NCBI GenBank assembly: GCA_003116975.1
Contig: BGKB01000092.1
Span: 124,001-188,000 of the forward strand
Reading direction: 5' to 3'
Source: Aurantiochytrium sp. KH105
Taxonomy: Eukaryota; Sar; Bigyra; Thraustochytrida; Thraustochytriidae
DNA: 64,000 nt
Part shown: in pieces, positions 17,503-23,377 of the stretch
Position numbering within the stretch: position 1 is the stretch's first letter
How the letters are laid out: each line of letters begins with the position of its first letter
The notes under the pieces: generated by a model
The model's input: only the letters and a program-made list of their open reading frames with translations
Told to the model about the DNA's origin: nothing
Database searches by the model: none
Translations under genes and position numbers: made by a program

Positions 17503-19439
17503 ATGAGCTTGAGCATGAGGGAAAGGCAGCAGCTCGAGGCCAAGGCGGAGCAGCTCGCCAGGGAACGCGAGAAGATCGTGGCGCTGCTCAACGAGAAGGA
17601 CGCCCACCTCGTCGGCCTGCAAGAACAAATCAAACAAGTGCAAGCCCACCAGCAGTCGACCGGTCTCCTCTTCGGGACGGAAGCCTCCGCAGCGGCGGCG
17701 GCAGCAGCAGCAGCGGCGGCAGCCTCCGCAGCCGCCAACGCCAATCCAAACCCTGCTCTCGCTTCTTCTTCTTCTTCTTCTTCTTCGTCGTCGTCGTCGT
17801 CATCGTCGTCTTCTTCTTCTTCCTCGGCTGCATCACCGTATTCGCGCAGCATGTACGGCGCAGGACCTCTTCTCGGGTTCAACGCGCGAAGTGCGACGAA
17901 TGCGCTCGCCTCACGAAACGTCGACGACCTCACGCAATCCTTTCAACGTCTCAACAGCGACAGCAACCTCAAGCACTCTCTGCATTTCGAGTCCCAGGGC
18001 CAGAAATCAGCCGCCATTGCAGGTCTCGTGCGCAAGGCCTCCGCTTTGTTTCCAGACGATAAAGCCTCCAAGCAGCTCGTCAGTGCCCTCCTCTTGCACA
18101 ACGATCCCGAAACGCACCGAGCGCTCGGCCATGCGGACCACGACAATGGTGCATTGTTGCGTCGTGTTCTCGAATATCGGGTCACAGAGCATGCCCGCGC
18201 CGACGCCGTCCGTAAACTGCAGGAAACAGAGGCCGCCGCGCGCCATGCCATGCAGCTTTCTGTCACAGGTCTCAGAACCGCAGATCCAATGCGAGATATT
18301 GTCCACGACAAAGTCAAACAGGAAAAGGTCTCCAAAAAGTTGCAGAGGCTCAACAAGACCCAGGGCCAAGCGCAAGCGCAATCGCCCTTTGGCTCGCCAC
18401 TCGGACCCACGTCCTCCGCACCGGGTGGACCCATGTACACTGCTGGTGGTTTCCAGCCCAGTATCTTTCAGCCATCATCCTCTACTTCATCTTCATCGTC
18501 ATCGTCATCGTCACCACATTCATCATCGCTGTCTTTCCAGCATCAACAGCACCAACACCAGCCCCAGCATCTTGATCGGCAACAACAACAACAACAACAA
18601 CAAGGTCGAGGACCTCACGCCTCGGCGCCTTCGCTCGTGCCTCCACCGCAACCATCTCAGTCACATCAGCAACTCTCCAGCCAGTCAACTTCGCCAAACG
18701 GACCCTCGTCGAGCTCGCCCATCACGGCGCAAGCACTCGCGCAAATCCAAGCTCTCTTGACCAAGTCACAACAAGCCCAAGCACCTCAACAAACAATGCC
18801 ACCCCCGGTGCCCCCCTTGCCACAGCACTTGCAGGAGCAAAAGCAGCAAGACGAGTCGCAGCAGGGTCTTCCATCAGCAGCTCGTAGAGGAGAAATGCCG
18901 CTATCTCAGCCCGTCGGCCTGGTGCCAACCTTTTCAAATCGATCGTCGTCGTCATCTTCATGGACCTCACAAGAGGCTCTCGAAGCACTCCAGAATGTTT
19001 TTGCGCAGCAACAACTGCAGCAGCAACATCAACAGCAAAGCGTTCCAAACAAAACCTTTTCTGTCCCGACGCTCTCGCCGGGCGTGGCAATGCCGCCTCC
19101 TCCTCGACCTGCAGGACGCAACTTTTCAACTTCCTCCTCCTCATCTCTGTCTTCGTCCTCGACGCCGTCTACATCGCTGCCCGTGTCTCCGACTCTCTCT
19201 TCATCTCCGCTGGGAAGCGTTCATTTCACCGCGGCCTCCGCAAGTCGCGGTGGTGGCGGCGACATGGGTTCCAAGCGCTCTCGACCTGAGAGCATGCAAC
19301 GTTTTACCACTTTTCGCGATGCGAATCGTACTCGTCTGGAAGAGGAAATTCGTCTTCTCACCGAAAAGGCGAACTTGTCCGAACCAGATCTTGCGAGGGC
19401 TATGCAAATGTGGAATGGACCCAACTCTCAGCTCCTTTT

Positions 19440-19470
<31 letters not shown>

Positions 19471-20268
19471 CAACAGCATCAGCAACAGCAGCAACACCGA
19501 CCACAACACCAACCGCAGCAGCAACAACATGGCACAACCTCCTTTGGCTCCCCGCCCCCCCATGACCTTGCTTCCATGCCCCATCCCGCAAACCTTGTCA
19601 TGCAATCATCAAACATTGGCGTGCGTGGGGTGACCGAGGAAAGTCATGAAAGCAACAGCAGCTTCGACGGCGGGTCGCCCTCCCCAGAAGCGAGCCCTCT
19701 TCCTGGCTCAGCCTCAAGCGATTGCGGTGGAGATTCTTCGCGACCAGACATTGCGGTCAAGACACGCGAATACGCGCGCTCAGAAAAACCGACCGCCGTT
19801 CCGCGTCGCTGGACCGATGACGAGGACGAACTCTTGCGTCGCGCCGTCGAGCGGCACGAGAAAAAGAACTGGAAAGCAATCGCCGCTGAAGTTCCGGGAC
19901 GCAGCAACGTACAATGTCTGCAACGCTGGAAAAAAGCCCTCGATCCTCGAGTCGTAAAGGGTCACTGGACGCCCGAGGAGGATCAGCGCCTCTTGATGCT
20001 CGCTGCCCAAAACCCCAAGAATTGGGGCTATGTTGCGCGTGAAATTGAGGGGCGCAATCCGAAACAATGTCGGGAAAGGTACACGAATCACCTCGATCCA
20101 AGCATCAAAAAGGGATCGTGGACTCCCGAGGAGGATCAAATCATCGTTGAAAAGCAAAAAGAACTTGGCAATCGATGGGCTGTCATTTCAAAGTTTCTCC
20201 CCGGCCGTACTGAAAACAGCGTCAAGATTCGCTTCAAGAGCATCCAGCGACAGACGAAGAAACCGTGA
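17503..20268 (+). CDS. Three-repeat (R1R2R3) Myb transcription factor
   Basis: This single-exon gene encodes 921 residues. The C-terminus carries three tandem Myb SANT repeats (about 768-817, 819-868 and 870-918). They have regularly spaced tryptophans and the segments RRWTDDEDELL, GHWTPEEDQRLL and GSWTPEEDQIIVE, ending PGRTENSVKIRFKS. This is the 3R-Myb arrangement of c-Myb and plant/protist cell-cycle Mybs. Here the DNA-binding domain is C-terminal rather than N-terminal. The N-terminus (3-50) is a coiled coil with regular leucine/glutamate spacing. The middle is low complexity: poly-Ala (about 63-78), poly-Ser encoded by tct/tcg runs (about 87-108), poly-Gln at several places, and proline-rich stretches. 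These are typical activation or phase-separation segments. The start ATG has a good context (cggccATGa). It converges on the aspartokinase gene. Confidence 0.93.
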
Positions 20269-20791
20269 GCGCCGACATTCTCCACATAATCGGTCGTGGA
20301 GGATTTGGCACACGCTCGCGCATGTGTGCGTATATGTGACGTTGTTACTTCTTGCCGTCTGGCATGTCATGTATAACCAACCTCTTAAGCTCTTTCTTCC
20401 GACAAGGGCCGTACGGACGACCGGCCGGCCATTCATAGTGTGCCTGCATCCGTAGGTCGAGAGAGATCGAAAGAAGAGGGAAATAACAACGCGGACTTCA
20501 ATTCCGTAGCTCCGGTACTCTATTTTGTCTCATCAACATCTGTCGCTTCGATGCGAAAAAAAAGGATGCGACGCTTTGCACTTGTGATTGCAAACAATAG
20601 AAAGAAAGTATATTTTGTGTGTGATGTTTACGCGAAAGGGAAATCGGAGCAATGCAAATCTCCTTGTTGCCGTGAAAGAGAGTATTGCAAGCAACACACA
20701 AAGCAGATGTACACGAAGAAAAAACGGAGCAATGCAAATCACTTGTGGAGGTAAGATCAGGACTATGTCATCGAGTTTAGGGATTCAAAGC
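20269..20791. other. Convergent 3' intergenic region
   Basis: These 523 bases lie between the Myb and aspartokinase stop codons. A 15-base direct repeat (ggagcaatgcaaatc) occurs at about 20648 and 20728. A short frame with a Cys/His pattern overlaps it but lacks convincing coding support. Confidence 0.45.
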
Positions 20792-23377
20792 TCAGGCAAA
20801 GCGAACAAATTCTGCGACAGGCTGGCGCGTCTGAGTGTCAAATGGCGTCGAGGGAACGCCCACGAGCGCGATGCGGCCAGGCGTCGAAATCAAACCTTCC
20901 GAGGAGACCTCCGCTTCCTCGTCGTTAAAGACGAGAATCGAGTCGAGAATCTCTTGGTCGACCTGAAGGGCCTGCACGCGCTTAATGCCTGCATCCAAGC
21001 CCGAAACAACGTGCACGCGCTGATTGGCCACGCGAGTGCTGAACCAAACATCAATGGTGGCCATGGGGGCAGCCTCCTCGATGATATTCGCCACAACAAC
21101 GCGCGCGCCGCCGAGCACGCTCTGTGCCTTGACGATGGCCTCCTCGACCGGAGCCTGCGACACGAGCGTGACGCCAGACGGAACGTCTTCACCCGCACCC
21201 GCGAGCAAGAAGACCTGGATCTGTGTGCCAACAATCGAGCAAAGGTTCATCACCTGCGCCGCGCTGCGGCACATGAACGTTACACCAGGGTTCTCCGCAA
21301 GAACCGTCCGCAACACCGCAGGCTGCTCGCTCCAGGAAAGCGGGTACACAGAGAGATTGGCGGCAGCCCTGCGCACGGACTCAAGGTCAATAATGGAGAA
21401 CGGCCGCGCCTGCGACTGGTGCCTGGCAACCTCAGCCTCGAGCCAGATCGCCGAGCTCCCAAGGCTGAGATCCGTGGAACGCGAGCTCGCCACGGCCTGG
21501 GCCGGAAGCTGCCAGTACTGCGTCGACGAAAACGAAGCCGCACGCGTCTTACCAGCCGCCGGGACGGCAGTGCTGCTGCCACCACTGCTGTTGCGCTTGT
21601 GCAGCTGGAAATCCCTTGGGACCCCGGCTGCGGCAGCTCCGAGCTCGATGGCCGAGACCGGTCGCGGACCCGGGGGCGAAAGGTTGTTGGGACGCTCAAG
21701 AAGAACATAGTGCAACTTGGAGACGAGCTGATCAATGGCCTCCTTCGAGTCCTCGCCTATGACAAAAGACATGTTCAGGTCCTCGGTGGACTCGCTCAGC
21801 AGCAAGAGGTTGTACTGCTCAAGCTCCTTAAAGGCGTCCGCCATGCCGTGCAAGAGCGCGCGCAGCTTGCGACCAACAATCGAAACAACCGTGCAGTCTT
21901 CCTTAACGGTGACATCGCCCTGGCGGTCGAGCGAGCGAATCAGGGCAGAAAAGGCCTGGCCACGCGTTCCACCAGGAATGTCCTCCAATGTCATGCTCAC
22001 GGCGTACTGCGAAGTGGCAATCAGATCGACAGAGATGCCAAGATGCTGAAACGGCGCAAAGACACGGCTCAGGAAACCGGCCTCGCCCCACATGTCGACC
22101 GAAGTGATGGTGAGCAGAACCTGGCCCGAGCGTTTGGTGATGGCCATCACGGCGCTTTCCTTGCTGTGCGGGATGAGGTCCGAACGAAGAATGCGCGTGT
22201 GGTGCTCCGAGTCCGGCTTCATGGTGTTGCGAATCTCGACGGGAATCCTGCCAAAACTTGCAGGTCCGAGACAGCGCGGGTGCAGCACTTTGGCGCCCAT
22301 GGCTGCCAGCTCCTGGGCCTCGCGGTAAGTGAGCTCCTCGATCAGGCGCGCGTTCTTGACCTGGCGCGGGTCCGAGGAGAACATGCCGTTGACGTCAGTC
22401 CAGATCTCGAGCTTTTCGGCCGCAAGCGCGGCTGCAAAAAGAGCGCCCGAGGTGTCACTGCCACCACGGCCTAGCACGCATGCCTGGCCCTCGGGCGTGC
22501 TTGCAATAAACCCTTGCGTCACAACGACGCGCTTGTCCGCAAAGAGGAGGGCACGTCGGTCGAGCCCGCTCGAAGCGTACGATCCGCGGCTCCCGCGCTC
22601 GAGGTCGGCCGGGACGGCGTTGGTGCTGCCCGTCGTCTCCGAGTCGAGGCAAAACGGGATCACGTCTGCGTTCAGGTACTTGTTCGAGGGATCCTCGACA
22701 GCACCATCGCCGCCGTTGCTGTTGCGTGCGGTGGTCACCAGGACGTCGCGGGCGTCAATAATGTCGGTGTACTCGGCTTCGCCTTCTTCTTCCATGGCGC
22801 GGCGCACAAACTCGACGCCGATCGTGCTGCTCATCAGCTCACCGTATCCGAGGATGCGGGCGCGAAGACGCGAGGAGGTGGATTCGCCGGTGAGACGGAT
22901 GCCATTGACGAGACGCTTGAGCTCCTCGAGGTAGGGCTCGACACAGCTGAATTCGACGCCAAGCTCCTCGCAATGCTTTTGGTGGCGCTCGCAAAGCCAG
23001 GTGAGTTCGTTCTCGACAATGTTTGCAGGCGCCATGCCGGTCTCTGCCTGCTGTGCCATGGTGGCGACCGAGGGGTTCGAGGCGATGGCGCGCATCTTCA
23101 TGGCATTGGTCTTGAACTGCTTGGAGGGGCTCAGGGTGCCTCCTGCGACGGCCTCGGCCTCGAGGCCCGCGGCGAGGGCCACGAGGTGGTTCGTCGTCTG
23201 CGACACAGCCGAGAGCACCAGGCACACGCGCTTGCCATCCTTGCGCAGGTCCTTGACGCGCTTCACGATCACGCCCCAGGTCTCGGCGCTGCTCACGGAG
23301 GTGCCTCCGAACTTGCACACCACCCACCTGCCGCTGCCTGCGCCGCCGTCGCCGGCCGTCGCCGTCTCGCTCGCCAT
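20792..23377 (-). CDS. Aspartokinase fused to a decayed diaminopimelate decarboxylase-like domain
   Basis: The protein has 861 residues from ATG 23377. The upstream in-frame GTG is rejected. Aspartokinase makes 4-phospho-aspartate, the entry to lysine, threonine and methionine synthesis. The kinase core spans about 17-400, with KFGGTS at 22-27, GRGGSD at 303-308, IWTDVNGMFSSDPR near 325-338 and GAKVLHPRCL near 361-370. Two ACT-type regulatory segments follow (about 422-562), normally the sites of lysine or threonine feedback. The last 200 residues resemble the first part of LysA: FSIIDLESVRRAA, then YPLSWSEQPAVLR (678-690), aligning with the LysA YA-K-AN-PAVLR motif, then GVTFMCRSAAQV. The PLP lysine is Ser681, and the rest of LysA is missing. 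The kinase resembles bacterial AK/LysA fusion proteins (about 870 residues), suggesting transfer of a bifunctional gene and later loss of decarboxylase activity. Confidence 0.9.
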   Translation of the reverse strand: MASETATAGDGGAGSGRWVVCKFGGTSVSSAETWGVIVKRVKDLRKDGKRVCLVLSAVSQTTNHLVALAAGLEAEAVAGGTLSPSKQFKTNAMKMRAIASNPSVATMAQQAETGMAPANIVENELTWLCERHQKHCEELGVEFSCVEPYLEELKRLVNGIRLTGESTSSRLRARILGYGELMSSTIGVEFVRRAMEEEGEAEYTDIIDARDVLVTTARNSNGGDGAVEDPSNKYLNADVIPFCLDSETTGSTNAVPADLERGSRGSYASSGLDRRALLFADKRVVVTQGFIASTPEGQACVLGRGGSDTSGALFAAALAAEKLEIWTDVNGMFSSDPRQVKNARLIEELTYREAQELAAMGAKVLHPRCLGPASFGRIPVEIRNTMKPDSEHHTRILRSDLIPHSKESAVMAITKRSGQVLLTITSVDMWGEAGFLSRVFAPFQHLGISVDLIATSQYAVSMTLEDIPGGTRGQAFSALIRSLDRQGDVTVKEDCTVVSIVGRKLRALLHGMADAFKELEQYNLLLLSESTEDLNMSFVIGEDSKEAIDQLVSKLHYVLLERPNNLSPPGPRPVSAIELGAAAAGVPRDFQLHKRNSSGGSSTAVPAAGKTRAASFSSTQYWQLPAQAVASSRSTDLSLGSSAIWLEAEVARHQSQARPFSIIDLESVRRAAANLSVYPLSWSEQPAVLRTVLAENPGVTFMCRSAAQVMNLCSIVGTQIQVFLLAGAGEDVPSGVTLVSQAPVEEAIVKAQSVLGGARVVVANIIEEAAPMATIDVWFSTRVANQRVHVVSGLDAGIKRVQALQVDQEILDSILVFNDEEAEVSSEGLISTPGRIALVGVPSTPFDTQTRQPVAEFVRFA

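Follow-up and report, generated by a model that had tools for sequence, protein, structure and literature searches.

The window, a stretch of 64,000 nucleotides from Aurantiochytrium sp. KH105, carries on its minus strand an aspartokinase (AK) gene made up of a single open frame, running from the ATG at 23377 to the TGA at 20792-20794 and encoding 861 residues (Table 1); the sequence-only reading, according to which the frame is intact to a normal stop, was correct on this point. The kinase domain features the motifs KFGGTSV, GELMSS, TQGFIA, GRGGSDTS, EIWTDV and AKVLHP. In the ACT region the best ACT_9 stretch spans residues 424-463, and the segments MW..(A)GFL.RVF and SVDLIATS can be recognized. 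The alignment of the 861-aa AK with E. coli LysC suggests that the ACT segments responsible for lysine binding in the latter are conserved, and ordinary lysine feedback is therefore plausible. The C-terminal tail (residues 561-861) starts with a linker lacking detectable homology to the profile of diaminopimelate decarboxylase (LysA), the score of segment 561-640 being matched by 86 of 150 shuffles.

Table 1. Parts of the 861-aa AK gene and their positions in the window
Feature	Residues	Positions	Strand	Basis or remark
AK gene with C-terminal tail	1-861	20792..23377	minus	single open frame, 861 aa
Kinase domain	18-400	22178..23326	minus	Pfam AA_kinase and alignments
Kinase insert	~73-118	23024-23161	minus	absent from bacterial relatives
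Kinase insert	~240-265	22583-22660	minus	absent from bacterial relatives
ACT regulatory region	401-560	21698..22177	minus	Pfam ACT_9 and alignment with LysC and fusions
Linker	561-644	21446..21697	minus	longer than the linker of bacterial fusions
LysA-like stub	~645-724, strongest 657-717	21206..21445	minus	profile-profile and constrained alignment
Ser in place of the PLP lysine	681	codon 21335-21337	minus	alignment
Rest of the tail	~725-861	20795..21205	minus	constrained; residues 718-861 without sequence match to LysA, Pfam or PDB

Most loci inspected in the genome (76 Mb, 367 contigs) form near-identical pairs, and the genome was for this reason treated as consisting of two haplotypes. The second haplotype of the gene (L015) also encodes 861 residues, and differs by 27 substitutions and no indels. 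A convergent open frame of 921 aa resides next to the AK gene (17503-20268, plus strand), and contains long homopolymer tracts and, by reading, Myb-like repeats; its glutamine tracts vary in length between haplotypes. Homopolymer-rich genes are a feature of this genome. A match to a PfaA-like polyunsaturated fatty acid synthase was also found in it (930 bits, cut-off 1010), sub-cut-off matches to the same model being present in 11 of 14 control genomes as well. The two features would point to a thraustochytrid-like stramenopile.

The kinase and its bacterial relatives

An AA_kinase domain with the KFGGTS and GRGGSD motifs is followed by ACT domains, and residues 1-560 are recognized as aspartokinase by both Pfam (AA_kinase, 148.9 bits vs. 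a cut-off of 24.9) and NCBIfam (TIGR00657, 279.8 vs. 208.7). The best NCBIfam model is PRK08961, bifunctional AK/LysA, which scores 387 bits as compared to 294 for LysC3; the score stays below the curated cut-off of 802. Among plasmid records, AK/LysA proteins provide the top two matches (E 3e-58 and 2e-55), while none of the other 28 listed, of 128, goes below an E of 2e-35.

Relatives are encoded by at least 577 of 588 candidate stretches in genome contigs. The best 80 were kept and, along with the two plasmid loci, examined. A kinase frame was found in 80 of these 82 loci; 67 of the 80 feature a strict YA.KAN-type lysine motif, and all but one of the 13 which lack it have EPGR after the kinase. 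The two loci devoid of a GRGGSD frame, and two more too short for the profile, were left out, and 78 were used. In the phyla of the nearest relatives strong matches were detected in 25 of 396 and 22 of 395 genomes. Of 40 loci drawn from the genome searches (three of which repeat L025-L027), 37 have a kinase frame, the remaining three being left out of the counts; the LysA lysine motif is present in 16 and absent in 21. The six closest readable kinases, 52-54% identical over residues ~272-564, come from Acidobacteriota and Gemmatimonadota, and all are fusions featuring YSMKAN or YAMKAN, and EPGR. A seventh close match (47% identity) sits at a contig end and was not readable.

The 861-aa AK groups with the fusions, apart from the other aspartokinases, in three trees (support 100/99, 100/100 and 100/100). 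In the first two trees the others are LysC, ThrA, Bacillus-type and Bacteroides-type enzymes, and the second aspartokinase of the same genome; the set is smaller in the third, which is made up of 24 of the 42 rows of the second tree plus six reverse-strand loci, the genome's own second aspartokinase, Bacillus, Bacteroides and both ThrA rows being among those dropped. Fusion kinases included were 28 of 80 in the first tree, 22 in the third. The position of the AK relative to the fusions varies. It falls outside them, with weak support, in the first two trees, where the fusion-only clade reaches 56/46 and 79/78, bootstraps being unsettled. In the third it is nested beside an Acidobacteriota fusion, within an Acidobacteriota/Gemmatimonadota subclade supported by 89/93, and of 200 bootstrap trees only 4% recover a fusion clade without it. 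The AU test does not reject the other placement, in which the AK is sister to the whole set of sampled fusions (p = 0.20), and the nested position is tentative.

Profile scores and trees place the kinase in the bacterial bifunctional AK/LysA lineage. Both the ancestry and the tree grouping by which the sequence-only reading proposed to check it are borne out; an organelle origin, also envisaged there, finds no support in the bacterial set searched, the nearest kinases being those of Acidobacteriota and Gemmatimonadota.

Two other aspartokinases deserve mention. The second aspartokinase of the genome (L020, G000:C337:7500-12434) is distant, corresponds to a 533-aa open frame on a short contig, has the general asp_kinases model as best NCBIfam match, and groups apart from the 861-aa AK. 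An AK/LysA fusion in a MAG titled Klebsiella pneumoniae (L073, CAMAWH010000003.1) groups with a Myxococcota MAG, and the title may be a mislabel.

The LysA stub and the rest of the tail

When the 301-residue tail (two haplotypes) is compared by hhalign with the decarboxylase domains of the 78 bacterial AK/LysA loci, residues 657-717 match LysA positions 24-91 (score 35.5, E 3.1e-4). The score is reached by none of 300 shuffles, which peak at 23.8. Segment 617-720 alone scores 36.6 (E 3.5e-5), a value found neither in 150 shuffles nor in 400 pieces of other open frames of the bacterial loci, the best of which scored 24.0, and constrained profile alignment of residues 657-717 gives z = 8.0. A single full-length profile alignment spans residues 12-717, and the tblastn match itself continues to residues 709-718 in 10 of the best 80 bacterial loci. 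The stub reads W-L-E ... PFSIIDLESVRRAAANL ... VYPLSWSEQPAVLRTV ... GVTFMCRSAAQV, the LysA counterpart being WWE ... YVYDLxTVRxxA ... YAxKANxHPxxLR ... GFECVSxGE. Searches of the tail against Pfam and NCBIfam gave no match, and plain hmmsearch with a profile of the 78 fusion LysA domains gave 2.0 bits only, and among 2,200 controls, either shuffled or reversed-shuffle, five scored higher and one was tied. A profile of the six nearest fusions matched the full tail more weakly (24.4, 1 of 100 shuffles as good), and segment 617-720 with a score of 24.8 (0 of 100).

The similarity to the LysA motif noticed at first is real by these measures. It is very improbable that the match arose by chance, in a tail by which a eukaryote extended an AK/LysA-type kinase with unrelated sequence: the shuffles, the fragments and the z value all speak against it, and the match sits at the sole place, and in the order, predicted by the bacterial fusion, so that this alternative is largely refuted. 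Residues ~657-717 are, as judged from the alignments, a LysA remnant. The counterpart of the Schiff-base lysine in the YA-x-K-AN motif is Ser681, as had been claimed, and this serine is shared by both haplotypes; the Y-A-x-K-A-N lysine of diaminopimelate decarboxylase and PLP fold III enzymes is lacking.

The LysA signal stops near residue 717. For residues 718-861 (144 aa) similarity to LysA was detected neither by hhalign, whose score is equalled by 131 of 150 shuffles, nor by constrained alignment (z -0.7, equalled by 218 of 300), nor by comparison with the six nearest fusions (equalled by 45 of 100); these residues have neither Pfam nor PDB sequence matches. No counterpart of the C-terminal LysA domain, marked by conserved CES and GAYG columns, was found in the tail. 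The relic domain had been put at some 200 residues, which is an overstatement: about 60-80 are demonstrably LysA by alignment, and no such origin can be claimed for the final 144. Since the PLP lysine is lost, the C-terminal domain is missing and residues 718-861 lack similarity to LysA, it is very unlikely that the tail is a working decarboxylase.

A frameshift and a displaced LysA remainder were looked for by scanning region 20000-21750 in six frames with the LysA profile. Only the real frame was hit (0.6 bits), one further match having a negative score. A frameshift origin of residues 718-861 finds no support here, though one of old date would no longer be visible; no LysA piece was found past the stop, and the convergent neighboring frame ends at 20268. 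With the tail as sole query, by which no more than close relatives can be reached, 40 pattern matches were obtained in genome contigs and six in viral contigs, none of them relatives. In its own genome it matches the gene itself and the second haplotype only.

The single-sequence AlphaFold model of the tail has a pLDDT of 35.5, and shows alternating strands and helices on to residue ~767, at very low confidence. When 41 of 76 fusion LysA rows (alignment A2) were supplied, block means rose to 77-96 over residues ~640-739, fell below 50 at residues ~755-849, and were 72-79 in the last dozen residues; this model is biased by the rows supplied, and the fold comparison is weak. The strand-helix order at residues ~640-739 is the one to be expected at the start of a fold III barrel, and the model is compatible with such a start, without being proof of it.

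The tail may be a mosaic, in which LysA is the source of residues ~645-724 only, and selection protects a newer part, residues 725-861, made up of new coding sequence or of a captured fragment joined on once the domain had been truncated. This is quite possible, and in line with the lack of LysA, Pfam and PDB similarity downstream of residue 717 and with the low pLDDT of residues ~755-849 in the alignment-fed model. Rapid decay of a released barrel would give the same picture, however, and the strand/helix alternation of the single-sequence model, of very low confidence, goes on beyond the stub.

Selection on the tail and the separate LysA gene

The two haplotypes differ in the tail by 8 nonsynonymous and 13 synonymous changes (dN/dS 0.20, neutrality rejected at P = 0.0005), and in the kinase by 19 and 24, respectively (dN/dS 0.25); the constraint on the two parts is no different (Fisher P 0.79). 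Nucleotide divergence is 2.3% in the tail and 2.6% in the kinase, both without gap columns, as compared to 6.1% in the 3' intergenic region and 10.3% in the 5' flank (500 bases), each with 30 gap columns. The same stop is kept in both haplotypes. The tail is maintained by purifying selection, the comparison of one haplotype pair bearing on recent constraint only. Residues 721-861 alone are constrained (4 nonsynonymous, 7 synonymous changes, P = 0.008), as also expected of a mosaic tail; in residues 617-720 (3 and 4, P = 0.07) changes are too few for a decision.

The tail might be neutral debris, an in-frame leftover not yet lost. Most of the LysA signal is gone, a sign of extensive decay, and the stub segment taken alone is not significantly constrained; yet the tail as a whole is constrained like the kinase and free of indels, between flanks which diverged by 6-10% with indels, and this reading is quite unlikely. 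Far less likely still, some catalytic or PLP-dependent activity may be carried by other residues of the tail. Nothing beyond conservation speaks for it; Ser681 replaces the PLP lysine, the C-terminal LysA domain has no counterpart, and barrel motifs are not recoverable. The stretch left over being still under selection, it probably does something non-catalytic. The features of a pseudoenzyme domain are found together (homology of the stub, loss of the catalytic residue, and significant constraint when the entire tail is considered, of which the stub segment by itself falls short), and the proposal that the decarboxylase half was dismantled while being kept is supported in part.

The search of the genome with PF02784 revealed six PLP decarboxylase loci, apparently three haplotype pairs. 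The L009/L010 pair is, by reading, ODC-like. L022/L014 is LysA, L022 scoring 283 bits with TIGR01048, just under the cut-off of 298, and retaining, by reading, its lysine; the separate LysA which the sequence-only reading advised to look for is therefore at hand. The third pair, L021 (G000:C16) and L013 (G000:C41), is made up of divergent LysA-like sequences (TIGR01048 168 bits for L021); L021 is on a long branch, and its placement is unsure. In a LysA tree including 17 fusion LysA rows, L022 clusters with Agrobacterium and Ruminococcus LysA (100/99), the fusion LysA forming a clade of their own (98/100). L022 cannot be the lost LysA half of the fusion, as it groups with monofunctional LysA. 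The genome apparently hosts, at a different locus, an intact LysA of separate origin, as judged from this tree.

DapB is present in the genome. Neither DAP epimerase nor DAP dehydrogenase was found, and none of 24 aminotransferase matches was over the DapL cut-off; these absences are provisional, because six-frame searches match exon by exon. An apparent LysA is present in a genome in which, provisionally, no enzyme forming meso-DAP was detected.

Origin and possible role of the tail

The probable explanation is that an AK/LysA fusion was acquired, and its decarboxylase half turned into a non-catalytic module on the kinase. A bacterial bifunctional gene would have been taken up by an ancestor of the eukaryote; the lineage is that of the trees, while transfer from a bacterium, and its direction, we infer. 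The kinase and ACT domains retained their motifs. In the decarboxylase half, which lost the PLP lysine and the C-terminal domain, the sequence past the first strands and helices diverged beyond recognition, or was replaced; the mosaic tail is a version of this explanation, not an alternative excluding it. Decarboxylation would have passed to the separate monofunctional-type LysA, whose gene is present and whose activity is presumed, making the fused half redundant. In the one haplotype pair, selection preserves the amino-acid sequence of the tail to much the same degree as that of the kinase, and the tail most likely would be a non-catalytic module which packs on the kinase, assembles it, or tunes it allosterically. 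Alternatively, the stub may have preserved the part played by the ancestral domain in the complex, docking the separate LysA, or sensing lysine, and in this way coupling the final enzyme of the lysine pathway with the initial one. This is distinctly improbable; if true, it would be a rebuild in trans of the feedback unit which the bacterial donor held in one chain.

The 861-aa AK shares with bacterial AK/LysA proteins (PRK08961, NF006515; Xanthomonas, Legionella, Rhodothermota, Acidobacteriota) the kinase lineage, the domain order and a LysA start in register. It differs from them because devoid of the PLP lysine and the C-terminal LysA domain, unrecognizable after residues ~717-724, and provided with a longer linker and two kinase inserts. 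Morris et al. (2009, PMC2705460) reported that oomycete aspartate kinases cluster with bacterial AK/LysA, and that DAP epimerase was not detected in oomycetes; it was not found in the genome analyzed here either. The oomycete kinase compared is Ps144305 of Phytophthora sojae; in the parts of that report consulted, which allow comparison by description rather than sequence, no LysA remnant is mentioned (PMC2705460). Given the grouping of the oomycete kinases and the lack of DAP epimerase described there, the acquisition may be older, and shared with oomycetes.

Catalytically dead relatives of enzymes may be kept as regulators, as is the case for antizyme inhibitor. The same is described for a deoxyhypusine synthase paralogue of trypanosomatids, to go by the part of the source consulted (PMC3663545). 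Both are separate proteins; unlike them, the dead part of the 861-aa AK appears to be a shortened domain within the same chain as an enzyme which is probably active. No aspartokinase with a dead LysA remnant was reported in the titles and abstract openings surveyed, subscription journals and preprints being outside this scope. AK/LysA-type kinases in oomycetes are already known, as far as described in PMC2705460; the retained LysA stub may be new.

The gene offers, in a eukaryote, a traceable conversion of a bacterial-type bifunctional enzyme into an enzyme with one activity and a retained dead stub, in the reaction which opens the synthesis of lysine, threonine and methionine. Should the kinase be tuned by its tail, this would be a new layer of feedback in a possibly oil-producing protist.
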